From the NCBI GenBank assembly GCA_002189035.1, contig CM007989.1:1116001-1180000 (forward strand): a DNA stretch of 64,000 bases. Direction: 5' to 3'. The position numbers and the translations under genes are program-made. Positions 10,503 to 59,004 of the stretch are shown here, piece by piece (the first letter of the stretch is position 1; each line of letters starts with the position of its first letter). The notes under the pieces are model-generated. The model was not told where the DNA came from. It saw nothing but the letters and a program-made list of their open reading frames with translations, and searched no databases. Source of the stretch: Utricularia gibba. Lineage: Eukaryota; Streptophyta; Magnoliopsida; Lamiales; Lentibulariaceae.

Positions 10503-13500
10503 TTATAATAATCCATTCGCCCGGTGGTATCCGGAAGGGGAAGATGGAGAAGGGTTGAGCTTCGCCGGATCCTTGAGGAGCTGCTGAGAGACGCGGTCAG
10601 CCAGGATCGACTGCCCATCGTACGCCTCTCCGATTGCGATTCTTCCATGCTGCTTTACCAGAGCATCGTTGTCATGCGGACCGAGTTGCCATGGAGCCTT
10701 TGATCTGTAATGCAACCCTCGCAGAATATCGGGGTCCCAGTAGGAAGGGCTGAGAGGGCGCACCTGCAGGTTGATGATGCCGCCTTCGGGAGATAATGAC
10801 AGCTGTTGATTACGGAAGGGGATTGCTCCGATGCCGCCGGTGAGGGGAGTCGATGAGCCAGATGTGGCTTGGGGACTAGATATAGGGGAAGGAGACATTC
10901 TACCGCTCAGATGCTGAGGAGACCTTGAATGCAGAAGAGGACTTCCCACAGGGGAGACTGGGCATGATATGTTCCTCGACATGAGGGAGGAGTCGCTGAA
11001 ATTCGAGAGTAGGAACCAGAGTCAGCTAGCTACACAAGGTCAATGAGAAGCAACTATTCATAGGCATGGGATGAGGCACACCTCAACTGGAAGCTTGATT
11101 TTGGAACTCTTGATGAATGGATTGCAAGTCTTTCAGATTCGGCCTGGACTCTACTGCTTCCAATGCCCTGCATCCATGGATTATGTTAAATATACAAGAA
11201 CACTAGCAGCAATGAAGGGTTTCGCAGAGAGTATGCATACCATGGATTTCACAACATTTATTAGTGCGGGACGATCTGAGGATGTGGAGCTCATCACTTG
11301 TTTCTCGAGAGGAGAAGCAGCCTTGACAAAAGGGTGCTCCAAAAGCTTGGCAGCCGTGGGACGATTCTGGGGGTTTCTCTGCAAGCATAACCTCACAAAA
11401 TCCTTCCCTTCATCAGAGAGGTTATCCGGGATTGCAGGAAGTTCTTTACTGTTACCAATCTTGAACATGGCTGCAACCTTCAAGACAGTAACTAACGGAA
11501 TCAGATTCCGCCAAAAACAAAAATGAAGGAAAAGTGATTCCATGGTGACAAAAGCTACTAACCCCTTCATATTGACTCCAAGGTGGTTTTGCTGTAGCCA
11601 TTTCAAGAACAGTACATCCAAGACTCCATACGTCAACAGCTAAACTGCATCCATTTGAATTCTTAATAACCTGTGAGAGTAAAAGACAAGGTAGAACAGT
11701 TACAAAAGCGTGACGACAGCAAGGGTGTTAGTTCTATGGTGTTCCGACAATATAGAACCAACCTCAGGTGCCATCCAGTATGGACTCCCCTTAAAGGATA
11801 ATGGACATGACTGCCCTGCTATCTGGATGCCAAGAGCATATAATGAAAAAGAAATCTATATGACAATGAGATCAAATTGCTGGAGAAATCACAGGAAAGC
11901 TGCAAGGGGATTGCAAGAATGTACATAAGACAGTTCCAATTCGGTTATATGCAGATAAACAAGTTAAACACAGAGAGAAAAGCAGCAGGCCAATCTTTGA
12001 AGTTTTAGGATGGCTATACATTCAAACATTAAAAATGAAATCATAGTTGCAGCTGCTAGTGAACACACATTCCAAACTTACATGCTTTGCCATCCCAAAA
12101 TCAGCCAACTTAACACGGCCACTCGGGTCCACAAGTATATTGGCTCCTTTAATATCTCTGAAGCACAGGTTATGCCACAGGTACTTGATTAAGATGTGAA
12201 AAAAAAACAAGAAAGCGACTTGCCCCATGATTATAACATAATACAACTAAAAACGCAGCAAAACCTGTGCACTGTATTTTTGGCATGCAAATAGGCAAGC
12301 CCAGACAAGATTTGCTGGGTATAACTACGGATGGCTGATTCCCCAAGCTTTCCGTACTCTTGAAGAATCTTATGAATGGAGCCACCAGACACATATTCTA
12401 AATATATATATAATCGATCACCCACCTGATGAAGTAACTCACGTAAGAATCAGGAAAAACATACCTACTGCTTGAAGAAACATATATCACAACCATAATT
12501 TTCTCTGAAAAAGAACTTAAGATGTATTCCTGATGTTTTGCTGCAATATCCATCTACTCAAATTAGCTATCCCTTTCTAGGTTACTAAGCCCTCAAGCAG
12601 GTTAATCAGATGCAAATTTGTAAACTGCAAACAGAAGAATAGGACAACATCACCTACCATTTCAGATCCAATGTACTGGACGATATTGGGATGTCTTAGT
12701 CGACTGAGAAGTGCAATCTCCTACATTAAACGCAAATGATTTCATAAGAACTTTTGGAAAGTGTTGACCACGGTTTTTGATTGGAAATGACATTATCAGA
12801 ATAATAATCTTATTCATTTTCCATGATTTGTGCTCCAGAGAATGCAAAATGGCAAATAGGACTTACTTGCCCTAATTGCTTCGCACTCTCCCTTGACTTT
12901 GCATCATCAGCAAATAAAGTAACCTCCTTCATGGCACACATTTCACCAGTTTCACTACAAAAAAATCCACAAATCCACAAATCAGGAAAATACTTGACAA
13001 ATAGTACTAAAAAATAACACCCTCAGATGACCATGTTTCCTTACCTGTTGAAACCAACGTAGACATGCCCAAATGTTCCTCTACCAAGCAACTTCCCCTT
13101 TTTCCAGCGTGATCCCGGGCTTGTCAGATTTTCAGGTCTTCCAGGGCTACGTGGTACTGAGGGTGAGGTCACAGCTGAATTTTGATGAGAGAAGGGTGAG
13201 ATATTAGATACTGCTATAGGGGGAGGGGCAAACGGTGACTCTGCTGCCTGACATCATCAGGCCAGTTACTTGGTGAATCAGAATGCCCTCCAGATCGAGG
13301 GTGAACAGGTGTTACAGCACCACTATGTATTCTAGAACTAGGGCCAGGGCTAGTCATTCTAGGACTAGGGTTTGGAGAATATTCAGGGCTTCCTCTGCTG
13401 GGCTGCCAAAACAATTGTCCACCATACATGTCACCTCCCATTGAATTGTGGCCAGAAGTCTGACCTGACCCAGGACTGGAGCATTGACCAGAACCAAGAA

Positions 13501-14301
13501 AAGGAAAATCTGTATGATGCTTCCCAGAACATACATTACTACTTGCAACTTGCTCATTACTGCGGCCTCTAATTGGACTTCTGGAGGGCTAGACATTGAG
13601 CTATCTGGAGCACTAACAAAGGCACCACGATGAGGAACTTGTAAAGTAGGTACTTGCCCATTCAGCATCCTTCTTCTTGATGGTGGTGATGAAACTTTTT
13701 TAACAGCAGAGATTTTTGCTGGAATCCGGGAGTCCCTTGTGATTACTGGTGCAGTACAGGGGTGATCGGTTGATGGGCTGTCAACTGCCATTCTACTGCC
13801 AATATCAGAGTCAGTAGCCAAAGGGCTACGATGTCTTGATTCAGCAGGATCCTCACCCTCAATTGACGATTCACTTGAGAGTGAAGAAACAGCTGGCTCA
13901 GCATCTATGTCTCCAGGTTCCAGTTTTTGACGGATGCATGCAGGTCTCGGAAGAGGCAGAAATAATGATGTTTTAGAGGACTTGTCTATCTTTGGTTTAG
14001 TAGGCTCACTTATACCAGAGTTTTGGCGCTGCCCCTGCTGGGGAGTTGGCGTCCCTTGGGGTCTTTCAGCAAAACTTTGGCATCGTGAAACATGTTTTGA
14101 AGGTGATGGAGATCTAGACTGCGCTCGTGAGTGGGACCCTCTTTCTGAAACAGTGTCACTCGAACGCCTCCTAGAACCTCCTGATCTAGTCTGAGATTTA
14201 CTTTCAGGACTCCTAAACTTCTTGTGTAATGTATCAATAAAACTTTCTTTTCCTGCTTTCGTTTTTGCATCTTTTGATGACTTTCCCCACCAAGAAGGCA
14301 T
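10503..14301 (-). CDS. YDA: YODA-like MAP kinase kinase kinase (MEKK class)
   Basis: Top-tier MAPK kinase; in Arabidopsis YODA acts upstream of MKK4/5-MPK3/6 in stomatal patterning and zygote elongation. Ten exons: 13045-14301, 12867-12954, 12658-12720, 12265-12425, 12082-12157, 11763-11822, 11563-11670, 11241-11477, 11082-11143, 10503-10995. The N-terminus MPSWWGKSSKDAKTK... ESFIDTLHKKFRSPESK and the Ser-rich regulatory region (SRAQSRSPSPSKHVSRCQSF) are YODA-type. The kinase domain is complete: WKKGKLLGRGTFGHVYVGF, CAMKEV lysine, HRDIKGANILVD, DFGMAKH, SFKGSPYWMAPE. The tail contains ISCPVSPVGSPLLHSRSPQH. Exon 1 shows two -1 frameshifts (13219-13223 and 13584-13587), both in C runs. With two bases restored the total is 869 codons, close to the family length. 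The 5' leader (14302-about 15200) is CT-rich in the sense strand and probably holds an intron. Confidence 0.93.
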
Positions 14302-15938
14302 ATTTTCTGAAATAAAAAGTTCCAAAATATGAATCACGAAGATATCAAAGGCTGTGCACATGAAGCATTCGAAATGGAAAGTGGCTTTCATCCTTTCTTT
14401 TTTTTTTCATTTTATCCTACAGCGAACTGATGTTCACAACCTAAGGACAAGTTAGTTGATTCATATAACCTAAGGAAGATAGTCTCTGTGATGGAAAATG
14501 ATACACGGAGCAGTTTACCCTGCATCTTTCTTTGAAATTCAAATACTTCTCCAAAAAACAATAAAAGAAAGTGAACCTTCGAAAGGTGTATTTTTACGCA
14601 GGATTTTTTTTATCTCATCACTGTTTGTTTTCCTCACCTAACCACTCACGACTTGCACAAAAATGAAAAAATATAGCCATCAACGCATCACCTCTGTTCG
14701 AATCCCCATATGGCATATACCCTTTGACGTATTTCACAACATTATGCTCATCGCTACCCCAGTGAGCTTTGACTTTCAAATCACTCCACAAGCTCAACTC
14801 TTTGTACCCTTCAACAGAATCAGCCACCAACCCAATCTCCCCAAAAAATTTTTAGGGCCGACAGCCGTTTTATCCAGTACCCACATTTCCCACCACCAAA
14901 AATCACAGATAACATCTCGCGTACAGACCCCAGCAAACTTGAACAAGAAAAATCAACTTCCCATACCGTAAAAAAACATAGTTTCACCAAAAGCTTACCT
15001 CCGAACTCCTCAACTTGTCACATCGCAGGGACAAAGCAACGCGAGCAAGAAGAGAGAGCACAGGAGCTCTAATTCGCCAAAAAAAGACCCGAAATAGTTC
15101 TGTAATGAGCCTCCGGAATCCAATTTAACGAATCGCATGCGCGAATTCAAGTTTCTGAGATCGCGTTGAGAGAGCGCGAGACGAAGAGACAAGAGAGAGA
15201 AAGAGCGATAGAGAGAGAAATAGAAGAGTTGCTCCAGTCAAGAATTTGGTAGCAGCAGCAATTATTGTAATTATGATCGCTATTTACTCTGTTTATTTTT
15301 TATATTTGAAAAAAGAAGAAATTATTTACTTCAATTTCGTGGAAATTAGTTCGATTTACTTTTAGAGTGGACCAATGAAATAGGTCCACGCTCTCTTTTC
15401 CATTAATTCTAAAATCACACATCCCCCCTTCAAATATATAAAATTACAACAACTCACATCATTTTTTTATTTCAGCCCCATGAAAAAAAATTATAATAAA
15501 TTTAATACATATATTATAACGGTAACTAGCAAAAAAAAAAATATATATATATATATATGACAAAATTTTTAAAACAGAATTATAAATTAAGTGATAGGAA
15601 TTTATACTACACTCCATATCAAACCATTATTAATTATTTTTTTAATTAGTCCATTTGGGATGAATTCCTGTTTTTAAATAAAAAAATGTTTAGTTAAAAC
15701 CAAGGTTTCCGTTATTACCAATGAGGTAATTGAATTTTACTATTTGCATTTCAACCAAATCTCTGCGTCGGGGGCCTGGATCCAGCCTACGATGGAGTTG
15801 TTGAAGCCTCAAGGTAGGAGATGTGAGTATATGTATACTTTACTCTGAAGAAAAGTTGAACAAAAGAAACGCTGGTACTGCAAGGCTGTGAGGACTGAGT
15901 AGCGGCGGATCAAAAGAGAAGGTGTGAGTCGTTTATTG
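14302..15938. promoter_or_regulatory. YODA 5' leader and shared promoter with TMEM161-like gene
   Basis: 14302-about 15240 is the likely untranslated leader of YODA; its sense strand has a pyrimidine-rich CT stretch at 15170-15235. 15250-15760 is AT-rich spacer. The plus-strand leader of the TMEM161-like gene probably begins after 15780. A GTTCGAATCCCC string near 14695 resembles a tRNA T-loop, but no tRNA can be built around it. Confidence 0.45.
15541..15558. repeat. AT dinucleotide microsatellite
   Basis: Nine AT units directly after a poly-A run in the spacer between YODA and the TMEM161-like gene. A typical plant intergenic simple repeat. Confidence 0.9.
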
Positions 15939-17260
15939 ATGATGGGTTCGATGGTATCCTTGATTCCGCTTCCCAGCGTCAATCTTTATCTTCAAGTACT
16001 CTTGGTGATCACGCTCAGCCTCCTACTTTCCTTCCTCAGAATCCCTGCTCTAGTCCTCACTGGCCTCCACACGTACGTGCATCCCGACGATGTCAATCCC
16101 AATGGAAATGGAGCTCTTCGGGCTGCGATTCGAAGACCCAGTGCCATGGATTCCGAACAGCCAACACCCAGAAAAAAATTGAAGGAAAGATTTGAGTTTG
16201 ACGAAAGTAAAGCCCAGGTTTTTAGACTGACACTCGGCGAGGGTCTCTTGCAATCGAGAGTTTATTTCAGAGAATTTCATAGTGCTTTCAATTTTACTAT
16301 AATTGCGGCTTCATCGATCTTGCTTCAGAAGTTTTTGAGCGTGGAGGGGGATGATGGGGTTGTTAAGGATGGAACTGTGGTTCCCTGATACTGGGACTTG
16401 CTAGTGTTTGTAGATTTGTGTTCTTGATTGTTAAAGTTGGGTTTGAGAAATCGGCTTCGAAGAAGATTGACAAGGATTTGAGCACTATTTGTGGCGTTTT
16501 GGGTTTCTTTTTAAGTATTGGTGTTGTCTTTGAGATGGTTCCAAAAAGGGTTATTGATTTTGGTCTCGAACCTCTAGATGCTCTAGGAAGGTTGCTCCTT
16601 GCTGCTTTCATGGGTTGCATTGTGGGTTTTCTTTACATTCCAGCAATGAGAAATGCAAGATGTTTCTGGCTTGGAACCGATCAGCTTCGTTGTAAATTGT
16701 CGATAATTTCATGTGGATGGTTGCCAAGAATACTAATCTATGCTTCTTATGTCATGGCTGTCTTCATTGCATTGCTTTGGATCACCCCATTTTCCAGCAT
16801 CTTCTTAACCGAAAACATTCATGGGAAAAGTGTATCCCTTGTTGGAAGATGCACTGGCATTTCTAGTTCAAGCTTTACCAGCTTTAGGAACATATGCATT
16901 GCAGTCTATGGAGTTCTTCAACTTGTGCTTATCAGATCAAATGTTCAAGTTTTCCTAAACGAATCAGTGTTATGCTGGTATCAACGACTGCACGCGAGCA
17001 AGGTGCCTGATCTGGAGTACAGCAGGGCAAAAGTCTTCCTTCACAATCACTACGTATGCTTGGTTGCTATACAGTTTCTGGGGCAAGCTGCACCGGTGTC
17101 ACTCCTCCTTGGTCTGTCACAGCTAGATTATGCAGGTTCTTACTCTGGATTGTTTAAGGAAGTTGGGGTGTTCATAGCATGGTGGATTGTCTTCGTGTGG
17201 GCTGCGATGAATTCGGCGATTCTTGTGTTGTTTCGTCGTGGAAGTTTATACATTTCTTGA
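15939..17260 (+). CDS. TMEM161-like multi-pass membrane protein (apparent frameshift)
   Basis: Intronless. It starts at ATG 15939 (MMGSMVSLIPLPSVNLYLQ) and ends with TGA at 17258-17260. The protein has an N-terminal hydrophobic segment (LLVITLSLLLSFLRIP), a hydrophilic stretch with HPDDVNPNG, then about seven further hydrophobic segments. The pattern, including FGLEPLDALGRLLLAAFMG followed by a membrane segment ending YIPAMRNAR, resembles the TMEM161A/B family. The molecular function in plants is unknown to me. The frame breaks at 16383-16385, where a CCC run gives an early stop; one additional C would read VVPLILGLASVCRF and restore a 441-codon frame (440 residues). It could be a pseudogene, but both halves are otherwise intact. 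An alternative is simply 'plant multi-pass membrane protein'. Confidence 0.75.
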
Positions 17261-17425
17261 TGAAAACCTTCTGGTACAATGCACTGGTAATTTTGTATTG
17301 GCATCCTGTGTCTTTGAATCACGGGAAACCAAAATGCTTTTTTTTTTTCATTCATTCTTGTAGTTGATGCATTACTCATGCAAGTGGCGTGATGCACCAA
17401 GACAGACGAGTGAGAAGAGAGCTAT

Positions 17426-17824
17426 TTAGAGTGTTGAGATCACTGGGGAAGTGTCTCTTACAATGTGGAATCTCTGACCACTTGCAACAGCTATTGTGAT
17501 CACCATGGTTGCATTCTCCGGCAGCCACAACTCCCTTCCGGTATCGATTTGCGAAACCGTGACAGCTCTATACTCCGCCTGTTCGACTTTTGTTATCCAC
17601 AGCTCGCCGGATCCATTCCTTGGCTCTCCCTGCTGCACGGCGATAATGAGCCTGAGCCGGCTAGAAGTCACCGGTGAGGATCGCCGAGCCGTGTGCGGCT
17701 GCGTGATGGATATGATCGCCAGATACGCCGTGAACGCCACCGCAATAGCTACTTTGCCTGGGTTCTGTGGAGTCCGTCTTGGGTTCACCATCGACCCCAA
17801 CACGAATTGCGAATAGTCATCCAT
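17426..17824 (-). CDS. Hypothetical small protein, 132 residues, one membrane segment
   Basis: Single-exon frame starting MDDYSQFVLGSMVNPRRTP. It has a hydrophobic segment (VAIAVAFTAYLAIISI) near residue 25, then a soluble part with VEQAEYRAVTVSQIDTGREL. Base composition is richer in GC than the flanks, which fits coding sequence. I do not recognise a family. The opposite strand also carries a 106-codon frame over the same bases, so coding on the minus strand is the better but unproven reading. It converges on the TMEM161-like gene (165 bp apart). Confidence 0.45.
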   Translation of the reverse strand: MDDYSQFVLGSMVNPRRTPQNPGKVAIAVAFTAYLAIISITQPHTARRSSPVTSSRLRLIIAVQQGEPRNGSGELWITKVEQAEYRAVTVSQIDTGRELWLPENATMVITIAVASGQRFHIVRDTSPVISTL

Positions 17825-18570
17825 CTAATCAGCATCTGCTCCTTCAATCTGCTTCACGGTGTTGTGTTGCTGATGCTTGTGCTTCGTTTCTCTGCAGCGT
17901 GGACGAGGCAACTGGAGATGGGGACTCCACACCCAAGATTTCGCTCTGAGACAACACGAACGTTGGACTTGGACTCTTTGTTTCTCGTCCCAATTATGCC
18001 ACAGAACATTGCAAATAAATGAGACAATGGACTCAATCCAAATATCGTGTTTCACATTGCTCAATATGAATAAAAAAGCATATTATTTCCCAATTCATTT
18101 CAATTTTTATTTTTATTTATTTATTTGTGTATAAGACAATGCTCAATTAAATTATATTACAATAAATTAATTATAAATTAATATCTTAGAAATGAAATTT
18201 AACAGTTACCAGTTCCGACGTAGGCTTCTTTTAATTTGTCGTGGAAATTTAATACGGCGCCGTATTGCTGCATTGGTCAAGAATTCCCTTCCCTTCTGTA
18301 GGCAAGGTAGCATTTCGCCCTTATAGATAGATTCAATTGAAGTACTGATTATGGAACTCTTTTGCGTGGCGTTGATGGGCTAGGGTTCTTTTGTGTGAGA
18401 ATTTGCGCGAAACGATGGAGAAGTGGAGAAGGAGGCGGCTATTTTTTAGTTTGAGTTGGGATTTCTGATTGGGCGGTTGACTTTGTTTGTTCTTTTACTT
18501 GGGATTCATATGGAATTGTTTGTTTCAGGAAGTTGATGTAGATAAGCGTCAATTTGTTGAGGCGCTGGAG
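17825..18570. promoter_or_regulatory. Promoter and leader of Ycf20-like gene
   Basis: 18060-18220 is AT-rich. A plausible 5' leader starts after about 18290, and a leader intron ends at the TTTCAG acceptor at 18529, followed by a short untranslated stretch before the ATG at 18571. Confidence 0.4.
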
Positions 18571-19035
18571 ATGGCAAAGTTAGCTACTTTGGCCTATGGT
18601 AGCCTTATAGGATACAGAACAATAACATCAAGCCTCAGTTATGCAAGTTCAAGAACTACTACTTCACGATTCCCATTGCAGTTCTACCGTATCCGGGCCG
18701 TGCAGGACAACGGGTCACCGAGAAGGTTAGTTGACCTTGTTCGGATCATACCAGAGGCATCAAGAGACTACTTTAAGAAGCCGTCAAGAAGGGCACTTTT
18801 TGGTGGGATATCACTCTTAGGCGGCTTCTATGTTGCACAGACAATATCTCTCTCATTTGGAGCCTTAGGAGTGAACGATGTCATTGCTGCTGTTTTGTGT
18901 GTTCTGATAACGGAGTATGTGACCAGATTCTATTACAGCAGACGTAAGGTTACATTCCCTCTTGCCCTTCTCAACAACTTCAAGATGGGATTCACTTATG
19001 GCCTCTTCATTGATGCTTTCAAACTTGCAAGCTGA
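18571..19035 (+). CDS. Ycf20-like plastid membrane protein
   Basis: 154 residues. The N-terminus (MAKLATLAYGSLIGYRTITS) is Ser/Thr/Arg-rich, as in chloroplast transit peptides. The C-terminal half is the conserved Ycf20 domain: RALFGGISLLGGFYVAQTIS, then GALGVNDVIAAVLCVLITE and FPLALLNNFKMGFTYGLFID, with two to three membrane segments. Ycf20 is encoded in algal and cyanobacterial plastid genomes. The nuclear plant homologue group includes Arabidopsis NPQ7, linked to non-photochemical quenching. The coding part is one exon; the acceptor at 18529 suggests a 5' UTR intron. An upstream read-through in the same frame (from 18487) crosses that acceptor and was not used. Confidence 0.88.
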   Translation: MAKLATLAYGSLIGYRTITSSLSYASSRTTTSRFPLQFYRIRAVQDNGSPRRLVDLVRIIPEASRDYFKKPSRRALFGGISLLGGFYVAQTISLSFGALGVNDVIAAVLCVLITEYVTRFYYSRRKVTFPLALLNNFKMGFTYGLFIDAFKLAS

Positions 19036-19424
19036 ACCCTCTTTCACTTATTCTTATGAATGTAGCTATTGCTATACTTTTTTTGTTTGATATAACCTTA
19101 TATGAGTTCAGGGAGCTAGACTTCTCGTGAATCTGTTTTGAGCAGTGTAAATATGTTGTATGGCCAAATGTATACATTTGGCTGTGAAACCTGATTGAGT
19201 TGAGAGGTTTTGCCATAAAACATTGGCTTGATACATGAATCAAAAAGATCATGGGATTTGAAAGGGGAAGCATGATTTGATTCCAAATATCCATACAAGT
19301 CTGGAGCGACTTAGCATACATATTTCCATCATCTTTTACATGGAACCCCACATCACAAGTGAAGTTCAGTGCACTTTATTCCATCATCATCAACACCGTT
19401 GCTGGTTTTGGAAATGCCTTCACT
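19036..19424. other. Convergent 3' UTR interval, Ycf20-like and SDH
   Basis: 389 bp between the two stop codons of convergent genes. No further gene was recognised; short antisense frames here are not protein-like. Confidence 0.6.
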
Positions 19425-22276: not shown

Positions 22277-22295
22277 GGGTGGGTGGGTGCCTGGG
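22277..22295 (+). other. G-quadruplex motif (G3 x 4)
   Basis: Reads GGGTGGGTGGGTGCCTGGG: four runs of three G with loops of 1, 1 and 5 bases, which meets the standard G4 pattern. It lies 20-odd bases before a GATCC pentamer repeat in a non-coding interval. Confidence 0.7.
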
Positions 22296-22317
22296 TTGGT
22301 TGGTAGATTTATTGAGG

Positions 22318-26258: not shown

Positions 26259-27062
26259 TGGTGGATACTTGTCGGGGAACACTTTTTTTTTATTAATAAA
26301 ATAAAAAAATTATTACATACCTTTCTGGAGTTAGTTAATTTATTCTGCAAGTTGTACATCCCTTTTTATCCCCTTATAAAAAGAAGGTAATAAAGAAAGA
26401 TATTAAATAAAATAATATATTTGATATTTTTCAATTTTACAATATATGAATTCCATTTTTTCAATATTATTTATATATATCAGATTCATTTAATATTTTT
26501 TATTTTAAATTTTTTTTTTATTTACGTTACAAAATATTGAAGATAGGTTTATATTTTCATATAAAATATTAGAATATAATTATAAAAATATTATTTAATC
26601 CATCAAAATATTGAAAATTGATACAATTACATTAAAATGTTTTATTAAAATCATATTCATTGTCTCATATCTCATTCAAATAATACGTAATTCAAATACA
26701 AATGAATATTTTTTATTATCAATACAAATGCATGTATATAAATTATAATTATGAAGATTTATTTAAAATATATATTAAATATTCATAACATATTTTATAT
26801 TTATTCGTAACCATTTTTATAAGGTAAATATTAAAAAAATAAAAAAATTAGGAAAATAAAAGTAAAAAATAAAATTGAATCCAATCCACTAAAATATCAA
26901 TTCGAATCTAACCCGATCGAACCCATAGTTTTAAAATAGTGCTTGCCATTTTAACTATATTTCATCAATTAAATACATGTTTTATTCTATTTAAAATATT
27001 TCTCAATATTTCAACAACTTGCTGGAGTTTGAAGAGTTTACAGTATAAACAGACCAAGGTGA
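26259..27062. other. AT-rich convergent spacer, GA20ox/PPR
   Basis: Very AT-rich sequence with no protein-like frame; probable 3' UTRs at each edge. No repeat with clear ends. Confidence 0.6.
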
Positions 27063-28693
27063 TTAATCTGGTTTGACGTCCTCCATCTTCAACTCTTTAC
27101 CTAATGGAATCAACACACTGTGCAGAGTCTCCATTAGCTTTTCCGGTGATCCGTTCACTGAAAACTCATAAACAACACCATCAATTTCAATCAAGCTGGA
27201 ACCAGGAACCGTCTTCTTGATGTCTTGGCCTTTCATCAGTGACCTGATTCTCTTGTGGTCATCAAATCGTCCAGATTTCAAGTATAAATCACAGAGGTTG
27301 ATGTAGAAAGCATGGTTCTGAGGGTCCATTCGAATCAGATACTGCGAGACCTTTTCCCCCAGCTCAAAATTTCTGTGCTGTTGGCATGCTCCAAGAAGTG
27401 CCCCCAAAACGAAAGCGTCTGGTTTCATTGGCATGCTTCTGATTAGTTTTTCTGCCTCGGCAAAGAGCCCGGCTCGGCCAAGTATGTCGATCATGCAGGC
27501 GTAATGCTGGAGGATTGGCTGGATGTGATGAACACGGGTCATTGTGTTGAAGTACCAGCAACCTTTATCCACGAGGCCATTGTGAGCACAGGCGGAGAGC
27601 AAGTGTACGTAGGTCACTGCATTGGGCTTCACCTCTGATCTCTGCATGTCTTGGAAAAGCTCAAATGCTTTGTTTCCATAGCCATGGAGTGCAAAAGCTA
27701 AAATCATGGCTGTCCATGCGTGCACATCCTTGACCTGCATCGTATTGAAGATCTCAAATGCCCTTTCCACGCAGCCACATTTCGCATACATGTCGACCAA
27801 AGCTGTGGCTGTGACCAAGTCGCATGCAATTCCTTTGCGTTCTAAGTAGCTGTGCACCCACCGTCCTTGATCGATGGCCCCGAGAGAAGCACAAGCTGAA
27901 ATTGCACTTGCAACAGTTACTTTATCAGGGCTCACCCAATTTGGATCACCATCTTTCGCCATTTGCATTTCATGGAAGAACTCTAATGCTTCCTTTGCTC
28001 GACCACCTTGGACCAAACCGGTGATCAGAGAATTCCAGGTAACGATGTTTTTTCTTTCATCCATCTCCCTGAAAAGTCCCAAGGCTAAATCAAGCTCACC
28101 CCCTCGCAGGCACCCAATTATGAGGGAATTCCAGGAAACAACATCCCTCTTCGGCATTTCATCGAACACCCTCCTCGCATCCCCCAACACCCCACACATC
28201 GAGTACAAACTGATCAATCCATTACCCACGTAAACATCCCCTTCAAATCCAAACTTCACTAGATGATTGTGTATGCTCCGCCCCCGGGAAGATCCAATCT
28301 TCTCCAACATTCCTTCAGCACAAAAGGAATTGTTATACAATCAGGCGTAAAACCGCTCCCCAACATCTCTTTGTACAAAATCACACACTCACAGGAGATG
28401 GGGTCACTTGTTTTGGTCGCGTTCGCCCTTATCATGGCATTGAACATAGAGAAACTGGGGCTCGGAGTGCGACTGAAAATTCTGTTCGCGTAGCTGAGAG
28501 ACGAACGCGATTCGGAGACCGTGCAGAGGTAGAACAACATACGGAAAACAAGAAAAGATCGTTCCTTTCGCGATAAAAGTGGCGCCACTATGACCTGGGA
28601 ATAGACTTGATTCAGCTGCCGGATGCTCTTGCAGCCGTCTATCACATGAGCTAACACGCTCTTCAAACTCGCCTGGTCATCCCCAAGAACCAT
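27063..28693 (-). CDS. Pentatricopeptide repeat protein, PLS class with E-type tail (apparent frameshift)
   Basis: Organellar RNA-binding protein of the kind that directs C-to-U editing. Intronless. The first in-frame ATG is at 28693 (MVLGDDQASLKSVLAHVID). It contains a run of PPR motifs such as GNGLISLYSMCGVLGDARRV, FDEMPKRDVVSWNSLIIGCL and ALVDMYAKCGCVERAFEIF, then the E/E+ region (PGSSLIEIDGVVYEF) and a short tail. There is no DYW deaminase domain, so it would need a partner for editing. The frame breaks at 28281-28285, a run of five C on the plus strand (five G in the sense strand). One added base joins DLPGG to RSIHNHLVKFGFEG and makes 544 codons. Everything else is intact. The target RNA cannot be predicted by eye. 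Confidence 0.9.
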
Positions 28694-38984: not shown

Positions 38985-40867
38985 TTATCTACTCATGGAT
39001 GATAGAAACAGATCCTGCAGCACAGAACAGGACGATGGATATTGGTTATTTCCCTGCTTCAGAATCTGAATCAGTTTGCCTATTTGGGACGAAAACATGT
39101 AGACTTCATCTGCTTTGTCCTTCCTTACCCATTCTTCCAGTGTCCTAGAATTCGCAAAGCAGCATTCTAAGATGAGGGGGGCGCAATGGAAAGAAGGTTG
39201 TTAAAGAAACAGCGTACCTTGAATCAAACTCCATGCCATGCCCTGGTGCAGAATACAACAACTTAATCATGGGATGCATAGCTTGTTTTCCATATGCACC
39301 AGTAGGGTTGCAGCTTCCAGAACAACCCCAAGAATCTGGATTCAGGAGAACAATATACAACAGCATGGATTTCGTCTGGATGTCCCTGACCACAGTTCTA
39401 TATGATAGTTCGTCTTGCGCAATTTCCAGCAACTGGCTAGCAAACATTCCTCCGAGGTTATAGTTCCTGCACAGGGTGGAGTTAATTCGACATGCCTTGA
39501 CAGTTAAGAAGCCAATGAAACAGAGTGAAAATGATAAAAGTAAGCAAGACAGCACCCAAAAGCATCTGCTGATCCTCCACCAGGTAAACAAGTTGAGATG
39601 CTGCACTTGAAAAGGCGAACTCCTCCATCTATTGGTGTATAGTCATCAATGTAAGGATAAGCTCCTACAAGATTAGAGCACTGAGGGCACACATAATCGT
39701 TCCACTTGATATCTTTCGACATTCCAGAGGATCGAATCATGAATCCGCTACCCAGGTAACCATCAAGAAACACCCTCTCATTCTCCAGCCGATCATCTTC
39801 TGAACAAATTTTCACTTTTGATATGGATTCCACCAGTTCATGAGTACAGCAACCGCTACCACAGAAATCGTTCACATGCTTCCCGGTTGCTCTCTCCTCA
39901 TGGACATTTCCAGCAATGGTGGGTGGCTCCTGTACCTCATCTTGGGAAACTCTGGTTGACTGATCGTCTTCCAGAGGCATCTCAATAGAAGCATTGTTTT
40001 GCTTAACCGTCACATCCTGCCGTTGAAGATCACTCTTGCATACTAACACAGTTGATTCACTCAAGAGGCCTGAACCTGGTGCACACATGTAAGATTTGGC
40101 ATATGTTGCGACCAGCTTCTCACTAACACCACCAAATGAGCAACAGCATGTCCCAAACCAGTTGTCTGCGGCTTCTCGCCAGTTAACCGACGGCATATCG
40201 GAGAAAGCCCTGTGCAGTATGGTGCAGGATCAACAAGTGTAAGATCAGATTACAGAAGACTCAAGTGACTAACCCGAGTCCCTTTGTTAGCTTATAAGAG
40301 CAATTTCTGCAGTAAAAGTGCACCTCCTTCATCTCAGACAATTTCTTCAAATCTAAACATGGATATATTGAAAAGGGGAAGCATGAACTTAGAAGCATTG
40401 GAAGATATTAGCAACCAGCACTCTATAGGTTCAAGGCGAATTGCAATTAGCAGTAAGTTTTCACCAACCAGAGTTAACTCTAGGCCGACAGGGCTGATTC
40501 CCTCCCTCCTCCAGATTGAGAATAGAATCGAACTCTAAAACGAGAGGATGGGCAACCGGAAGCAACAAAACAAGTTTAACCTCGACATGATCATCAAACG
40601 CCTTGAACTGGGTAAAGAATCTTTTTCAAACAACACCCTGGGAGCCGGAACTCGGAGCTGCGTCACGTCGTCAGAGTCATTTTCCTTGAAGGACACCAGT
40701 AAGACAGATTCTCCGATGAGAAGACTGACTTCGAGGTCTCCAAATTTAACACGGAGGGTTCTATCCGAATTGAAAATGAGCACTCGGATAACAGAGGCGT
40801 GTGATTGCGCCTCCCAGGTAAACCTCCACGCTTCACAGCCACCGTCTACGGCGGACGCAGGCGGCAT
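38985..40867 (-). CDS. UBE3D / E2-binding HECT_2-like ubiquitin ligase homologue
   Basis: Resembles the HECT-like E2-binding family (PF09814, human UBE3D), proposed E3 ligases that bind E2 enzymes. The ATG at 40867 (MPPASAVDGGCEAW) is preferred over an upstream in-frame ATG at 40963. Segments in order: WRFTWEAQSHASVIRVLIF, FGDLEVSLLIGESVLLVSF, LRVPAPRVLFEKDS, FDDHVEVKLVLLLPV; then EVHFYCRNCSYKLTKGL (near 40290), SVNWREAADNWFGTCCCSFG (40170), NDYVCPQCSNLVGAY (39690), LSYRTVVRDIQTKSM (39390), and a last exon TLEEWVRKDKADEVYMF ending at 38985. CxxC-type cysteines fit the family. The frame shifts at a GGG run at 40610-40612 (sense CCC). Exon joins between 40330 and 40540 are not resolved. Confidence 0.8.
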
Positions 40868-48600: not shown

Positions 48601-49560
48601 ATATATCATACAAAAATAAGATTTTAGAAGATGAGGTTGGATTAATGCCATTTGGCCAACAATGATTCTTTAATGACCCCTTGAGATTTAAAATAATATA
48701 ATATTCTAACACTATGGTTAATCATATTCAAATAATTCTTATTTTAAAGGGAAAATTTTCAAATATACTATTCATATATTAGTGTGAATTAATAATGATG
48801 TTCCAATGAAAAATGTGAAAAATATCACAAGTATGAAAGAAATTTGATATTGTAGCCACGCACATATTATAAAAAATAAAAAATATAGTATCTTTTAATA
48901 TTAGAAATAAAATAAAAAAGGGATGGTAACTGTACTTTGGATGATGCATTAGGTAAGTGTTTAAAGGACCTAAAAGTAGTCAAACATTGCATGCTCACTC
49001 CCAATGCTTTTTATTTCCAATATCAAAAGTGGTGGTGAGCATTATAATTCCAGTTTTTTTTATAAATATGGAAAAATATATTAATTTAGTTCTCAATGAA
49101 TATAAAAAATTAATGTTATTCCATTAAATTAATTTTTTTTAGATTTTCTACGTTCTATTATTCGTTTTCTTGTTTTACTTACATGAAATGTGAGCAAATA
49201 TTGATTTTTTAAGCGGAATTAGAGATTTTTGGTAATAACTCTAACGTTTACTTGGGCTAGAATGAGTGATCCTCTTGAAAGACAGACCAAAGATGCAAAA
49301 ACCTAAAATCTTGAAATATTATATATATGTATATATATTATATCAATATCTATGTGTCTGTTAATGATTAGGGGAAATTGGATTTATTTAATGAATTTGG
49401 TAGTGGCCTTAACTGGAAGGCCGTGTTTATGCAAAGGAAAAAAACAAATTGATGAAGAGAAGATACACACAGAAATGAAATTCAACATCGCACAGCTGGC
49501 GTGCAAACTCAAAGGTCCATCTTTCTTTTGACGCTCTGTCGCTTAGGGCCCCCCCTCTCT
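45614..49560. other. Long AT-rich intergenic region
   Basis: About 4 kb without a recognisable gene. 46910-47270 and 47390-47510 are GC-richer, with short frames lacking domains. The dispersed repeats near 46477 and 46720 are listed separately. 48000-48350 and the rest show no coding signal. The CESA promoter probably lies in the last kilobase. Confidence 0.5.
46477..46790 (+). repeat. Two direct copies of an AT-rich dispersed repeat
   Basis: Copies at about 46477-46530 and 46720-46790 share the TTA(C/T)TAATAATT region and the exact string ATATTAATTTTTTAATAT. Related sequence occurs at 22934-22980 and, inverted, at 43674-43728. Confidence 0.45.
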
Positions 49561-49565
49561 ACCAG

Positions 49566-49598
<33 letters not shown>

Positions 49599-49614
49599 AA
49601 CACACACTCACTCA
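49566..49614 (+). repeat. CT/CA compound microsatellite in CESA leader or promoter
   Basis: A CT run passes directly into a CA run interrupted by AA. Pyrimidine-rich tracts of this kind are common just downstream of plant transcription starts; here it lies about 700 bp before the CESA ATG. Confidence 0.8.
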
Positions 49615-50313
49615 CGATGATACAGATCATCGAGGAGTCCAGCTTTTAGTCTGTGCATCTGGGGTCCGCGGAAGTTCTCTCCTTGGCTTGGGTTTGTGGG
49701 CCCGTGGGTGTTCTTTCACGCGGTAAGGTCACTCCTTTTCAGGCTCAGGGGTGGCACCTCCCCACCGGCCGTGGCTCTGCTTCTTTCTCTAATAATGGGA
49801 ACCAGCCAGCCATGTAACAGAGCAGAATTAGCTAGGCTAAAAGATGGCTTACCCAGTTCATTTCACATGAATTATTGTCATTAGATTTGTGGCAGAAGCA
49901 GCACAGCGACTTCACAACAAGGGGAATCAACATTCTGGATTTCCATACTTTCCCCTGTTCTATTCCCCATTTGGGTCGGCTTTTTTTTCCCTCCCCATTG
50001 TGGGAATTTCCTTTTGCTCCGTCGCCGTTGGGTTAGGGGACCAAGAATTCTTTTTTCGAGGGGCCGAGGCGTTTTTGTTTCGTCATTGTTTTGGGAAAAG
50101 CTCAACTTTTTCGTGGATTTGGTGCTAATCTCTCGGCTATTTGGTCCAGTTACTCTGACACTTGAATCTTTCAGGAGGTGAGGTAGAACTCCGATCCCGA
50201 GATTCGTGAATCGGGTCTCGGAAACTGCTGTTCGGACGAGATCCCACCTGTTTCTGGATGGAGGCGTAGTCGCTGTACAGTTTCAGACGCTTGTTTCTCG
50301 GTTTTCTGTTGGA
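49615..50313 (+). promoter_or_regulatory. Probable 5' leader of CESA with intron
   Basis: Transcribed-looking, less AT-rich sequence upstream of the ATG at 50314. Short frames here are not protein-like. A leader intron is likely but its ends were not fixed. Confidence 0.35.
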
Positions 50314-53300
50314 ATGGCGATGAACACTGGAGGAAGGCTTGTCGCCGGCTCTCACAATAGAAACGAGTTTGTGCTAATTAATGCGGATGAAATTGGAAGG
50401 GTATCCCTTTCTTTCTCATGGCTCTTCTTGGTTCTTCTACTCATTCCTTTTTTGTAGTTCAAACTCGATCTTTCAGATTCAATTTATGCTTTTTGCTCGC
50501 ACGATTGGGGTAACAGAATTTCGAGGTTTTCATGGATTAGATTTGGGTTTGAAGGCCCTCATATTTGTGCCTCGATCCTCTTCTCCGATTTTTTATTGTA
50601 CGTTTTCTTCTGTGCAAAAAGTGTACCTGCTCGGTGGTTCAGCTACTCCCCTAAAAAAGTTCATTACTTTCCGTAATCCTTTTGCTGGTATTTTTTTATT
50701 TGGTAAAGGTAACGATGATTGATGAGCTTATAAGTCAACGCTTGGTGCCTTGCGACTGTGCAGATTAAATCTGTCCATGAACTTAGCGGGCAGACATGTC
50801 AAATTTGTGGGGACGAACTGGAGATAACTGTGGATGGAGAACTCTTTGTTGCCTGCAATGAATGTGCTTTTCCAGTTTGCAGAACATGCTACGAGTACGA
50901 GAGAAGGGAAGGCAGCCAATGTTGTCCCCAATGCAAGACCAGATACAAGCGCATCAAAGGTAACTTGCGTTGCCTGTTTTATGCTCTCTCTTTTCTGTAG
51001 GTGTTTTATCAGCGTTGTCTGATCATAAATTGTTTAATAGGTAGCCCAAGAGTTGAAGGAGATGAGGATGAGGATGGAGCTGATGATCTGGAGCATGAGT
51101 TTCATTATGAAAATATTGATGCTTTGGGTTTTTTACGAGGTTCCAGTGCCGCAGCTTCTTCATCCATGAATCCAGGGCATAACCTGTCATCCCAGAATCT
51201 TGATATCCCTCTTTTGACTTATGGTGAAGAGGTAGTGTTTTCGTTTTGACCTTCTGAATATTCTTACTCCTAAGTATGTGTTAGCGTTCTAACTTTTGGC
51301 TTTTTTAGGATGCTGAGGACGCAGATAACCAGGATGCTATAATAGTTCCTCCAGCTGTTAGCCATGGAAATGGAATTCAATCATCTCCTTTTATTGGAGA
51401 AAATAGTGAGTTGTTGTTTCCTTTGGGAACATCCTCCTTCATTCTTTTTATGCATTAATTTATTTGGTGTAATCGTTTAGTGGCAACAAATCCCCGACCT
51501 ATGGTGCCCCAAAAAGACACTGCATTATATGGATATGGAAGTGTTGCATGGAAGGATCGTATGGAGGACTGGAAAAAGAGGCAGAATGAAAAACTTCAAG
51601 TGGTAAAACATCAGGGAAATGATGTAGATGAATATCACCCAGGATTGCCTATGTGAGTACTTGTAATCTGCTGCTGTGTTATTATCAGCTGTCACTTGAG
51701 GTGATTGGAAGGTGCATAAGATTGTTTCTTTGTCCTGTCACTTGATTTTCAGGATGGATGAAGGGCGGCAGCCACTGTCAAGGAAGTTACCCATTGCTTC
51801 TAGCAAGATAAATCCTTACAGAATGATAATTGTCCTACGGCTTGCGATTCTTGGATTATTTTTTCACTACCGTGTACTCAACCCTGTACGTGATGCATTT
51901 GGCTTGTGGTTGACATCCGTTATTTGTGAAATATGGTTTGGTGTGTCATGGATTCTCGACCAGTTCCCAAAATGGTATCCTATTGAAAGGGAAACATATC
52001 TTGACAGGCTATCTCTCAGGTATATATTACTGTGATGATCATGGCTTGTTGAATGTAAGGAAGCTTGACTGAATGGTATTTTTTCAGGTACGAAAAAGAA
52101 GGGCAACCCTCAGAGTTGGCGGATATTGATGTATTTGTCAGCACGGTGGATCCTATGAAAGAGCCTCCATTGATTACAGCAAACACTGTTCTCTCCATTC
52201 TTGCAGCAGATTATCCGGTTGAAAAAATATCGTGCTATGTATCAGATGATGGTGCAGCAATGCTCACTTTCGAAGCTCTTTCAGAGACATCAGAATTTGC
52301 TCGAAAATGGGTTCCATTTTGCAAGAAGTTCAATATTGAGCCACGTGCTCCAGAGTGGTACTTTTGTCATAAGATGGACTATCTGAAAAACAAGGTTCAT
52401 CCTGCATTTGTCCGGGAAAGGCGTGCCATGAAGGTTTTTATCTGCTACCAGTCTTTGTTTCAAATATTCAGATGCCTAGCCTCTTACACCTCCAACAAAA
52501 TAGTTCAAAACAACATGGTTTTTAAATGTTTTTTTTTTTTTTTTTTATGGTGCACAGAGAGATTATGATGAGTTCAAAGTTCGTATCAACCAGTTGGTGG
52601 CTACTGCAGAAAAGGTTCCTGAGGATGGTTGGACAATGCAAGATGGTACATCCTGGCCTGGTAACAACGTCCGGGACCATCCTGGTATGATACAGGTTAG
52701 TGTAGTCCCTAACTTGCCTCTTCCATTCCTTGTTGCTTAGAGTTAGAGGGGTGCTCCCTATGTCATTTGATTTATAGGAGTCACCATGTTCGAAAACAGG
52801 ATATCGATTGAAAGGCTGCCCAATGTTCTGTCTTTATCATCCATCACTTTCAGTGCATTTGATGCTGGAAAGTGGAGTCTGTTTATAGCATACTACTCCT
52901 GATGTCACAAATGAGTCTGTGCACAGCATGTGGATAAGCACATTTTATTTGAACAGGTGTTTCTTGGAAACGATGGTTTTCGGGACGTTGAAGGCAATAT
53001 GCTCCCCCGACTGGTGTATGTTTCTCGTGAAAAACGACCTGGATTTGAGCATCATAAGAAAGCTGGTGCCATGAATGCCCTGGTATATTGTCTTGACCAT
53101 GTGCAATATTGCTAGTTTGCTCTAATGTGCTTTTAGTCATGGAAAATCACCAGTTGCCGAGCTTTATCTTGTTATCTGACTGCCACTTATTCTCTTATAA
53201 AACATACAGATCCGTGTTTCAGCTGTCTTGTCAAATGCTCCTTACCTCCTAAATGTCGACTGTGATCACTACATGAATAACAGCAAAGCTCTGAGAGAAG

Positions 53301-55147
53301 CAATGTGTTTCATGATGGATCCCACTTCAGGAAAGAAAGTATGCTATGTGCAGTTTCCGCAGAGATTCGATGGGATTGATCGCCACGATAGATACTCCAA
53401 TCGTAATGTTGTGTTCTTCGACGTATGTCTCGCATTATCTCTTCATCTGTCTGGTATCTAAATACTCTTTTTAGGTGACAAATCAAGTGAAACTGTGAAA
53501 TTCTTGCAGATCAATATGAAGGGGTTGGATGGTCTTCAAGGGCCTATATATGTTGGAACTGGATGTGTCTTTAGAAGACAAGCACTTTATGGAAATGATG
53601 CACCTCTCAAGAAGAAGCAGCCTAGCAAAACCTGCAACTGCTTGCCGAAATGGTTCTGCTGTTGCCGCTCCAGGAAAAACAAGAAGGGTAAAGCGAAGAA
53701 TGAAGGTAAGAAGTCTAAGCACAGAGAAGCCTCAAAGCAAATTCATGCCCTTGAAACAATTGAAGAAGGTGCTGAAGGTTGGTGTCGTTTTTTCATTCTG
53801 TTTTCCAACTTAAATATTTCAACATAAAAAGGTCTCAGCTGAAGTGTCTCCATGAAACAGAACCAAAACCTGTTTTCACTCCCCCCCTCTCACAAGAGAA
53901 ACTGGAGAAAAGATTTGGACAGTCCCCTGTTTTCGTGGTTTCAACTCTAGTTCCAGATGGGGGAGTTCCGAAGACTATCAGCTCCACAACACTTTTAAAG
54001 GAAGCCATTCATGTCATCAGCTGTGGTTACGAAGACAAGTCAGAGTGGGGAAAGGAGGTAAGCCATCACCTTAAGCTTGCTCACTCTTCCCAATTTCACT
54101 TATTACAATGGAGTGTCTCCCTTTACCAGATTGGGTGGATATACGGCTCGGTGACAGAAGATATCTTGACGGGTTTCAAGATGCATTGCCACGGGTGGCG
54201 TTCTGTTTACTGTATGCCAAAGAGGCCTGCATTTAAAGGATCTGCCCCCATTAACTTGTCCGATCGTCTTCACCAAGTTCTCAGGTGGGCTCTTGGGTCG
54301 GTTGAGATTTTTCTGAGCCGGTACTGTCCAATCTGGTATGGATACGGTGGAGGACTGAAATGGCTGGAGAGGTTTTCGTACATAAATTCGGTTGTCTACC
54401 CATGGACTTCAATACCGTTGCTTGTATACTGCACACTGCCAGCCATCTGTCTGCTCACCGGGAAATTCATCGTGCCGGAGGTATGCCCTGAGTCTGCGCT
54501 GCATAATTTGATGAATGCTGATCTTTCCGGCTAACGTGAAAAAACACACACTGCTACAGATCAGCAACTATGCGAGCATCGTTTTCATGGCCCTCTTCAT
54601 GTCGATTGCCGTGACGAGTATACTGGAGATGCAATGGGGCGGCGTGGGGCTGGACGACTGGTGGAGAAACGAGCAGTTTTGGGTGATCGGAGGAGTCTCC
54701 TCCCACCTGTTCGCTCTATTCCAGGGGCTACTCAAGGTTCTCGCCGGAGTGAGCACCAACTTCACAGTGACCTCCAAGGGCGGAGACGACGGGGAGTTCT
54801 CGGAGCTGTACGTCTTCAAATGGACGTCCCTGCTGATCCCCCCCACGACCCTGCTGATCCTGAACGTGGTCGGCGTGGTGGTGGGCGTCGCCGACGCCAT
54901 CAACAACGGGTACGACTCCTGGGGTCCCCTGTTCGGGAAGCTCTTCTTCGCGATCTGGGTCATCATGCATCTCTACCCCTTCCTCAAGGGATTGTCCGGG
55001 AAGCAGGAAAGAGTCCCCACCGTGATCATCATCTGGTCCATCCTCCTCGCCTCCATACTCACCCTGGTCTGGGTTCGGGTCAACCCCTTCGTGTCCCGAG
55101 ACGGCCCGGTGCTCGAAATCTGCGGGCTCAACTGCAACGACGAGTAG
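50314..55147 (+). CDS. CESA6: Cellulose synthase catalytic subunit, CESA6/2/5/9 clade (primary wall)
   Basis: Plasma-membrane GT2 enzyme polymerising UDP-glucose into beta-1,4-glucan within the rosette complex. Fourteen exons: 50314-50400, 50764-50959, 51041-51231, 51309-51405, 51481-51652, 51753-52019, 52088-52433, 52558-52695, 52957-53082, 53210-53422, 53510-53777, 53861-54057, 54130-54480, 54560-55147. They sum to 1079 codons. The N-terminus [20 protein letters not shown] is diagnostic of the CESA6 clade. The RING-like zinc finger (CQICGDE ... CPQCKTRY) lies at about residues 38-85. Catalytic motifs: DDG (about 391), DCD (about 557), TED (about 776), QVLRW (about 814). Eight membrane segments flank the catalytic loop, and the end is [12 protein letters not shown]. 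There are no frameshifts. The class-specific region is rich in Lys and Cys (53640-53760). Confidence 0.97.
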
Positions 55148-56025
55148 TCGGCCGGAGCCCCGCATTCAAGACGTTGTTTTTTGTCATGTGTAGATATGTC
55201 AAAGAAGCCAGGGGGGGAGATGCCTTCATTTGTTGCTACTACGAGTCCTGAAAGTTTGATTATTCTTTGGTTGCCATTCAGCCACGTGTACCAGCCACCT
55301 CATTGTTTTTATTGTCTTTTTTAAATTACATTATTATACTTATTACTTTTACAAAATTATCTCATTATTAATCTTTATTTTAAATATATAAATAAAATGT
55401 TTGATATTATAGTATGGAAGATATATACATAAGTTTACACATTAATGACAGACTTGTAATTAATCACATACTTATTTTGTAAGTATGTGTGTAATATATA
55501 CAAATAGACTGATGCTTCTATTATTGTATATTAAATATTATATATAATTGATTATATTCATATTCAATTACAGTATACTTAAATATATTAATACATTACT
55601 ATCAAATTAACTCTAAAATAAATATGAAAATGTACAGCAAGGATAATTATTTTTTGTTACGCTCGATTAAAAGGAAAATCTTGGACTAGGTCAAGTCAAC
55701 GAATCTGCGCACCACCGCCATGTGGCCCCCACTTTTGAAAATCGCCCGCCTTTGATTAATCCGGTAATTTTGACTTTCTCTTCTGCATGTGGCCAAAATT
55801 AGTATATTTAAACATTTTTTTAAAAAAAAACCTTCGACAAAGAGTCTAAGGGCAAATATGCATGGCGATGGGTAAATGGTAATTTAAGGGTTTGTCACCT
55901 GCAACTTCCGAGCCTGCGGCTGGAGATCGGGATCAGGACAACCCTCCGACCATTTTGTCAACCTTTCTTTTGGGTCAGATTTTGAAACCATATACCCGAC
56001 TGATAATCTGCCCGTGCCTATAAAG
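55148..56025. other. CESA 3' UTR and ERF promoter
   Basis: 55148-55310 is probable 3' UTR. 55320-55660 is AT-rich. 55680-56025 is the likely ERF promoter, with TATAAAG at 56019-56025. Confidence 0.5.
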
Positions 56026-56048
56026 ATGCTTTTCAAGTATCCCATCAG

Positions 56049-56885
56049 TTGAAACCAACATGTGGTGTTGAATTCTTAGGTGGTTTTTCTCTGAAAAGTC
56101 CGGAGAAGAACGGTATATTGAAGGTGGCGAATCCAGGGGATGATGATTCATTTGGTTCCTGGGATGAGCAAGAATTTGCTGGGAATGGAGGAGACGATTT
56201 GATTCCCGGGGTTCGAAGAGACCGCGAGATGACTTCGATGGTATCGGCGCTGGCCCGGGTGGTCGCCGGAGAATCGGATAACGCCGCGGCTGGAGGCGAG
56301 TCTCCGACGAGATTTTCCCCTCTGTGCAAAAGAGGACGTGAAGAGGAGGAGAGTAGCAGTAGTGGTGCTCCTCAAACACTGATACGATCTGCGGAATCGA
56401 CGGTGTACACATACACCGCTGAGACCCCCGGTTTTACCACGGAACCGCCGGGGAGGAGGTACAGGGGCGTAAGGCAGCGTCCCTGGGGGAAATGGGCGGC
56501 GGAAATAAGGGATCCACACAAGGCGGCAAGGGTTTGGTTGGGTACTTTCGACACGGCGGAGGCGGCGGCAATGGCGTACGACAAGGAGGCTCTTAAGTAC
56601 CGCGGCAGCAAGGCGAAGCTCAACTTCCCAGAGAATGTAAAACTGCTCGACGGCCACAATCATCGCCGGAGAAGCCACAACGAACCGTCTCCTGTTGTTC
56701 CAAGTCATGGATCAGCACAATTTCAGGAAAATGAAGCCAACTACAGCATGTACAGTTCTCTGGAGGATGCCGCAGCAGAATTCTATCCACCGCCGCCACC
56801 GGGTATCTCCGACATATGGCCGGAGAGCACCGGAAGCAAGAGCAGCGGGGACGACTTCTCATGGAAGGACACACCTAGTTCGTGA
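56049..56885 (+). CDS. AP2/ERF transcription factor, group X (ABR1/RAP2.6-like); start unresolved
   Basis: Nuclear DNA-binding protein of the ERF family, expected to bind GCC-box elements; group X members respond to ABA, wounding and stress. The AP2 domain is complete: [20 protein letters not shown], then [20 protein letters not shown] and [13 protein letters not shown]. Upstream lies [14 protein letters not shown], typical of the group, and before it [12 protein letters not shown], like the N-terminus of ABR1. The open frame starts at 56049 without an ATG. The first in-frame ATG is 56228, which would drop the conserved LKVAN block. The true start may be in an unseen exon, or at ATG 56026 if one C is missing from the CCC at 56041-56043. 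However, TATAAAG at 56019 argues against transcription including 56026. Confidence 0.88.
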
Positions 56886-57479
56886 TTACCCTAAAATACA
56901 AAGCCACATTCATTGCAATGTTTCATTTCCATTGTACTCCTTTTTGGCAAGAAAAACAAACTCAAGCCTCAGCCTAATATCATCCTATTTCAAAATGTTG
57001 AATTCCTTTGTTGGTTTCAATACTCAATAGTATCATTCATAGAAATTCGAAATATATCATATGATACTATAATTAAATCAATAGATACAATCGATCACAT
57101 CGATATAACATATCAATAATATGATAAAAACATCACTAAACATCATAATTAGTGACATAATTTTGCTCTCTTCTTGCACAATGGATATAAACCCTAATGC
57201 TAGATTAAAGGGCTTGGTTTATATTTGAACTTTATAACGGCGTGAATCCAAACGATTTGGAATTACATATGAGATATCTAAAGTTTGTCAATCAAACATG
57301 ATATTTTATTTTAAATAAGAATGGAATTTTTATTTTAAAATTTTATTCTTTTATTTTCACCTCTATTTTCTCTCTGTCGCTAGATATTTTTGTGATTTTT
57401 TTTTTAAGAATTATTAAAAAGATTACCGTCGCTATTTCTATTTGGTTCTCCTGGAGCGGCAACCGCCCTGTGAATTCAA
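56886..57479. other. Spacer between ERF and GH17 genes
   Basis: AT-rich. The ERF 3' UTR is probably within the first 150 bp. Nothing else was recognised. Confidence 0.55.
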
Positions 57480-59004
57480 ATGAGGAGAAGCTCCGAGAGG
57501 AGGATGACTTGCTCGGCCACCGCCGCCGCGGGGTCGTCATTTTTATGGTCTCGGTTGTGGCGGAGGGGATCGGAGTGAATTGGGGGACGCAAGCTGCACA
57601 GAATCTCGACCCTGCCACGGTGGTGCAGATGCTCAAGGACAATAAAATTGACAAAATCAAGCTTTTTGATTCCGATCCTTTCAACGTTAACGCCTTCGCG
57701 GGAACCGGCATTGACGTCATGCTCGCTATTCCGAACGATCAGTTGCACGATATTGCTGATGACTACGGGAATGCCGATGATTGGGTCCTGGAGAATGTCG
57801 TCCAGAATATGCAGAACGGCATAAAAATCAGGTTAGTAACTCCGACGCGGTCTTGACATTCAATGTTTTGCGTCGCCGGACAATCTGAATATTGGATTTT
57901 ATGAAGGTACGTGGCGGTTGGAAACGAGCCGTTTTTGAAAAGCTACAATGGGTCGTTTCAGGGCATAATATTTCCGGCGCTGCAGAACATCCAGAAGGCG
58001 ATAAACGAGCAAGGATTAGGTGACAAAGTCAAAGCCACAATTCCGCAAAATGCCGACGTTTACGATTCCGGTGGCGGAGGCCCATCAGATGGGAACTTCC
58101 GGTCGGACATTCGAAGCCTCATGATACAAATCGTCCGTTTTCTACAAGACAACAACGCCCCCTTCCTCGTCAACATCTACCCTTTCCTCAGTTTATACGA
58201 GAACCCCAATTTCCCGATGGCTTACGCGTTCTTCGATGGCGGCGCTAAGCCGGTGATGGACAAAGGAACGGCCTACACGAATATGGTGGATGCGAACCTC
58301 GATACCCTCGTCTGGTCCCTGAAAAGAGCCGGCGCCGAGAAAGTTAAAATCATCATCGGAGAAATTGGGTGGCCGACAGACGGCCACAAAGACGCAAACC
58401 CCGATATGGCGAAGAAATTCTACGATGGCTGGTTCAAGAAAATGGCAACCAAAAAAGGAACCCCCAAATACCCAGTAGACATTGAATATTACATTTTCAG
58501 CCTCACGGACGAGAATCTGAAGAGTGTCGCACCAGGGGATTTCGAGCGTCACTGGGGATCTTCGGATACGACGGCCAGCCGAAGTTTACGGTGGATTTCA
58601 CGGGGAGACAGAACGACAAGATGCCGGTGGCCGGACAAAATGTGACTTACCGTACTGCGCAGTGGTGCGTTCTGGACCCAGAAATGACCGACGCCGTGAA
58701 CATTGGAGATAATATGAACTACGCTTGCTCTTACGGAGACTGCACGCCGCTGAATCACGACAGTCCCTGCGCGAAGATGGAGCCCATTAACAGGACGTCG
58801 TATGCGTTCAACATCTTTTACCAAATGAGTAATCAGGAGGACCGTGCGTGCGATTTTGAGGGGTTGGGGAAGATCGTGGATATGAATGCTTCCACCAGCC
58901 AGTGTAATTTTCCCATCGCATTGACGAGCGCCGCCGACCGGGCAGCAGGGGCGGCCGCCGGAGCCGTCGTTTACATCTTTTTGCTGGTTTTAGCTTCCAT
59001 TTAA
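57480..59004 (+). CDS. Glucan endo-1,3-beta-glucosidase, GH17 + X8 (CBM43), GPI-anchored (two apparent frameshifts)
   Basis: Hydrolyses beta-1,3-glucan (callose) at the cell surface or plasmodesmata. Two exons: 57480-57831 and 57907-59004. GH17 hallmarks: [16 protein letters not shown], the acid/base Glu in [17 protein letters not shown], and the nucleophile in [11 protein letters not shown]. The X8/CBM43 domain starts [10 protein letters not shown] and contains [13 protein letters not shown]. The hydrophobic C-terminus ([17 protein letters not shown]) fits a GPI signal. Two -1 shifts are inferred: at 57530-57533 (GGGG), which separates the ATG and signal sequence ([10 protein letters not shown]) from the mature part, and at 58554-58557 (GGGG), where HWG should continue [10 protein letters not shown]. 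The exon total is two bases short of 484 codons, which agrees with both. Confidence 0.92.

Follow-up and report, generated by a model that had tools for sequence, protein, structure and literature searches.

Several conserved genes in one region of the Utricularia gibba assembly start in one reading frame and continue in another. The region examined here (the window) is a stretch of 64,000 nt, C1:1116001-1180000, in a parent assembly of 100.09 Mb and 516 contigs. The question that it raises is whether these genes are broken in the plant or only in its assembled sequence. Three kinds of evidence were considered: the frames of the window genes themselves, stretches of DNA that the assembly contains more than once, and frame switches in several gene families outside the window.

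Frame switches in the window

By three-frame translation, all seven sites are -1 switches within C/G runs, distributed over five genes (Table 1). The first-pass annotation had claimed at least seven conserved positions each lacking one base in a C/G run, none of them an insertion, and both statements hold, each site being backed by homology or codon usage. Six of the runs are where it placed them; the run of site 2, given there as 13584-13587, is a GGG that occupies 13586-13588 and sits one base further right. Beyond the switches, conserved sequence carries on in the new frame.

Table 1. Sites of frame switches in the window, with the run that is one base short at each and the frame change seen by codon usage.
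Site	Gene	Run one base short	Position	Strand	Codon-usage frames	Basis
1	YODA-like MAPKKK	C run (coding strand), immediately upstream of the kinase domain	13219..13223	-	f2 to f1	three-frame translation, paralog, codon usage
2	YODA-like MAPKKK	CCC (coding strand)	13586..13588	-	f0 to f2	three-frame translation, paralog, codon usage
3	TMEM161-like	CCC	16383..16385	+	f2 to f1	three-frame translation, Tmemb_161AB match downstream, codon usage
4	PPR gene (E motif)	G run (coding strand)	28281..28285	-		PPR matches, three-frame translation
5	HECT_2 (UBE3D-like)	CCC (coding strand)	40610..40612	-	f2 to f1	three-frame translation, HECT_2 match downstream, codon usage
6	GH17-X8	GGGG, signal-peptide region	57530..57533	+	f2 to f1	missing start codon, codon usage
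7	GH17-X8	GGGG, between the GH17 and X8 domains	58554..58557	+	f0 to f2	domain frames, paralog, codon usage

The codon-usage scan, for which intact GRAS genes from this genome served as the training set, makes no use of homologs. At six sites it passes from frame f to f-1. At the remaining one, site 4, it does not settle the upstream frame, but the PPR sequence there can be followed by eye, with PPR and E-motif matches downstream and PPR-like sequence running on upstream in the other frame. A YODA paralog (L059, contig C414) has one extra base relative to the window at both YODA sites, that for site 2 falling at window position 13588. At site 7 the flanking GH17 and X8 domain matches are in different frames, while a GH17 paralog (L070, C244) keeps a single frame across the corresponding stretch. 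Pfam shows no read-through for TMEM161 and HECT_2 because its models stop short of sites 3 and 5, so that support there comes from frame, codon usage, and the character of the sequence. Site 6 is the weakest of the seven. As it falls in a signal peptide, it is supported by codon usage and a missing start codon (none is available for the signal peptide in the frame used downstream) rather than by conserved residues.

Three other genes in the window, encoding CesA, a GA20-oxidase-like protein, and an AP2 protein, show no frame errors when introns are taken into account, and reading them by eye, in an annotation that is not exhaustive, revealed no +1 events. Separately, a non-coding, A/T-rich stretch of about 400 bases (26549-26942) has more than 30 copies in the genome at 70–85% identity, and is probably a short dispersed repeat.

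Stretches assembled more than once

Some of the U. gibba DNA is represented twice, in small redundant contigs as well as in main ones. Three such contigs (C316, C377, and C251) were compared with their main counterparts (C412, C321, and C244) over 50.4 kb of alignment, which contains 29 mismatches but more than 50 indels of one base. Loss and gain are formally ambiguous between two copies, and the direction of change was taken from open frames, from a gene present in three copies, and from homologs. In most of the differences within coding sequence, it is the shorter run that goes with a broken or shorter open frame, with one case at C377 in the opposite direction. One GRAS gene, for example, lacks one C of a CCCC run in C316, which cuts its open frame to 412 aa, from the 615 aa seen in C412. 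A search for redundant contigs covering any of the seven window sites gave only diverged paralogs.

For run-length counts the longer copy was taken as true, and shortfalls were scored in the main-contig copy. G/C runs were short in 2 of 170 cases at length 4, 7 of 38 at length 5, and 1 of 10 at length 6. Taken together, 10 of 218 G/C runs of 4–6 were short, vs. 0 of 813 A/T runs of 4–7 (Fisher P = 1.5e-7); the failure rate is about 18% for G/C runs of 5, and 0 of 275 for A/T runs of 5–7. The G/C bias that had been proposed from seven sites is thus borne out on a much larger set of runs. It needs one refinement, in that very long A/T runs, of 8 or more, are also under-called (5 of 37 are one base short), although such runs are rare in exons.

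A single GRAS gene occurs at three contig ends, as L021 on C422, L032 at the end of C414, and L041 at the start of C416. Each pair of copies differs by 0–1 mismatches, yet different single bases are missing from each copy, including CCCCC vs. CCCC and GG vs. G. Most of these differences can be polarized, two copies against one, as deletions. What looked like a +1-class event in L032 resolves into two deletions of one base each.

At the end of one redundant contig the pattern changes. From about position 3,680 of L012 (contig C316) there are small deletions of all kinds, A/T-run and multi-base ones included, which become denser toward the contig end, as would be expected if read coverage drops there.

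Frame switches in other gene families

The GRAS family was searched with a purpose-written aligner aware of both frameshifts and introns. In 62 kb of coding sequence there are 23 events of the -1 class, or about one per 2.7 kb, and by our own count they affect about 13–15 of about 42 genes, roughly a third. The sole remaining +1-class event is in a decayed copy, L042. Paralogs in this family are too diverged for unambiguous assignment of the exact base lost, so enrichment of runs near the events was used instead, with random coding positions as a control (5000 resamplings). Near an event, the longest G/C run has a mean length of 3.87 bases vs. 2.64 in the control, with 0 of 5000 resamplings giving so high a value, and there is no enrichment of A/T runs near GRAS events (P = 0.81). 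In this family the events gather at G/C runs and not at A/T runs. Four of the genes (L026, L027, L028, and L045) share a break point, at a conserved GGPP motif encoded by adjoining G and C runs.

HSP70, UDPGT, and FAE1/KCS genes add 11 more events, all in the -1 class, with none in the +1 class. For the window and the GRAS, HSP70, UDPGT, and KCS families together, the ratio of -1 to +1 events is 41:1. A conservative count of 40:2 still departs strongly from equal frequencies (P = 4e-10) and from a 2:1 bias toward deletion (P = 2e-5). A TCP1 junction was dropped from consideration as a possible exon border, and P450 (PF00067) and kinase genes gave no usable in-exon pairs, introns being among the causes.

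Two groups of sequences in these families have features of their own. A pair of HSP70 duplicates, L071 (C304:2236150-2236400) and L072 (C241:17650-17900), have a common -1 switch at a GGGGG run, for which a systematic error and a real deletion are both candidate explanations. Two GRAS copies, L040 (C3:260900-262500) and L042 (C244:2105100-2106400), combine their frameshifts with in-frame stops, and have the appearance of true pseudogenes.

Origin and consequences of the short runs

On the sequence evidence, the seven window frameshifts are almost certainly consensus errors, in what is probably an assembly made from long reads only. The earlier preference for homopolymer under-calling over five gene losses is supported: duplicate and triplicate copies that are nearly free of mismatches still differ by single bases. 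Indels lie at homopolymer runs beyond chance, both for the GRAS events and in the redundant contigs; deletions far exceed insertions; and separate assemblies of the same DNA differ in run length and hardly at all in substitutions.

Real gene decay, with the deletions present in the plant as recent pseudogenes of a genome known for compaction, is very improbable. L040 and L042, which combine both kinds of lesion, suggest that decayed copies occur, but among the GRAS genes they are the only exceptions to a general lack of stops, of indels in both directions, and of relaxed sequence past the frameshift. Decay should yield indels of both signs and further lesions, in contrast to the 41:1 ratio found and to the single switches of the affected genes, which have few or no in-frame stops and little other damage around them. 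It would also mean that about a third of the GRAS family and several HSP70 genes were dead, and it could not produce the single-base disagreements seen where one stretch of DNA was assembled more than once, which are accompanied by hardly any mismatch. Less probable again is genuine polymorphism in C/G-run length, between haplotypes or near-identical duplicates, arising by an unusual slippage mutation. The redundant contigs could be haplotypes, and a 1.5-kb part of C316 has 10 mismatches, above the rest of that contig. In natural variation, however, mismatches outnumber single-base indels; here, single-base indels exceed mismatches by about 2:1, most coding differences break the frame, and the three copies of one GRAS gene each lack different bases.

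The short runs might instead be real, with programmed frameshifting or slippage of the polymerase at the C/G runs putting the frame right at expression; we consider this reading the least credible of all. Homopolymer slippage is known in other systems and so has precedent, but the sites, in unrelated genes, have nothing in common except a C/G run, often of just 3–4 observed bases. There is no shared slippery motif, the flanks differ, and the paralogs of the YODA and GH17 genes read through in one frame. Repair at expression is also unnecessary, because other assembled copies of such DNA do have the longer runs. A combined version, in which C/G runs of the plant truly lose bases at a high rate, slippage at expression restores the frame, and the assembly is correct, is about as improbable as length polymorphism.

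Under-calling in the consensus works as follows. Individual long reads miscount homopolymers, chiefly by dropping a base, and the consensus step then fixes the run at one base too short. The targets here are mainly C/G runs of true length about 4–6, together with A/T runs of 8 or more; since exons are rich in the former and poor in the latter, the errors appear there as -1 switches at C/G runs of genes that are otherwise intact. The platform was probably PacBio with HGAP/Quiver, as the assembly statistics fit those of the published U. gibba HGAP assembly, with 88x PacBio coverage and a contig N50 of 3.4 Mb (PMC5793159). Homopolymer frameshifts have been documented under Quiver (PMC4853030). 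Under-calling accounts for nearly all that is observed, but not for why G/C runs are hit so much more often than A/T runs of equal length. This preference presumably arises from the chemistry or the consensus model; a statement of G/C bias for this chemistry was looked for in the literature, and none was found.

The artefact is of a known kind, with no new biology. Single-base deletions that split genes at homopolymers are shared with long-read-only assemblies, both PacBio CLR with HGAP/Quiver and Nanopore, but the runs affected here are short (true length about 4–6) and strongly biased toward C/G; in one Nanopore case A/T errors outnumber G/C errors (PMC12007338), unlike in the U. gibba assembly. 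True pseudogenes and gene losses in reduced plant genomes likewise disrupt frames within conserved genes, but without the one-sided spectrum, the scarcity of other lesions, and the discordant copies within a single assembly that are found here.

For annotation of this assembly the practical effect is large. At least one false frameshift is present in roughly a third of the GRAS genes tested, and if the same rate holds genome-wide, then counts of genes and pseudogenes, as well as claims of gene loss, will be inflated unless corrected with accurate reads. Gene-breaking indels from long reads are a known source of false pseudogenes; in one bacterial assembly, annotated pseudogenes accounted for 23.3% with uncorrected long-read errors and 5.6% after correction (PMC12007338). 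The redundant-contig comparison requires no reads, and is usable as a test on any assembly from long reads in which duplicate contigs have been left. For the present assembly, the GRAS gene shared by three contig ends further suggests that C414 and C416 are probably adjacent or overlapping, and that they could be merged at this gene.
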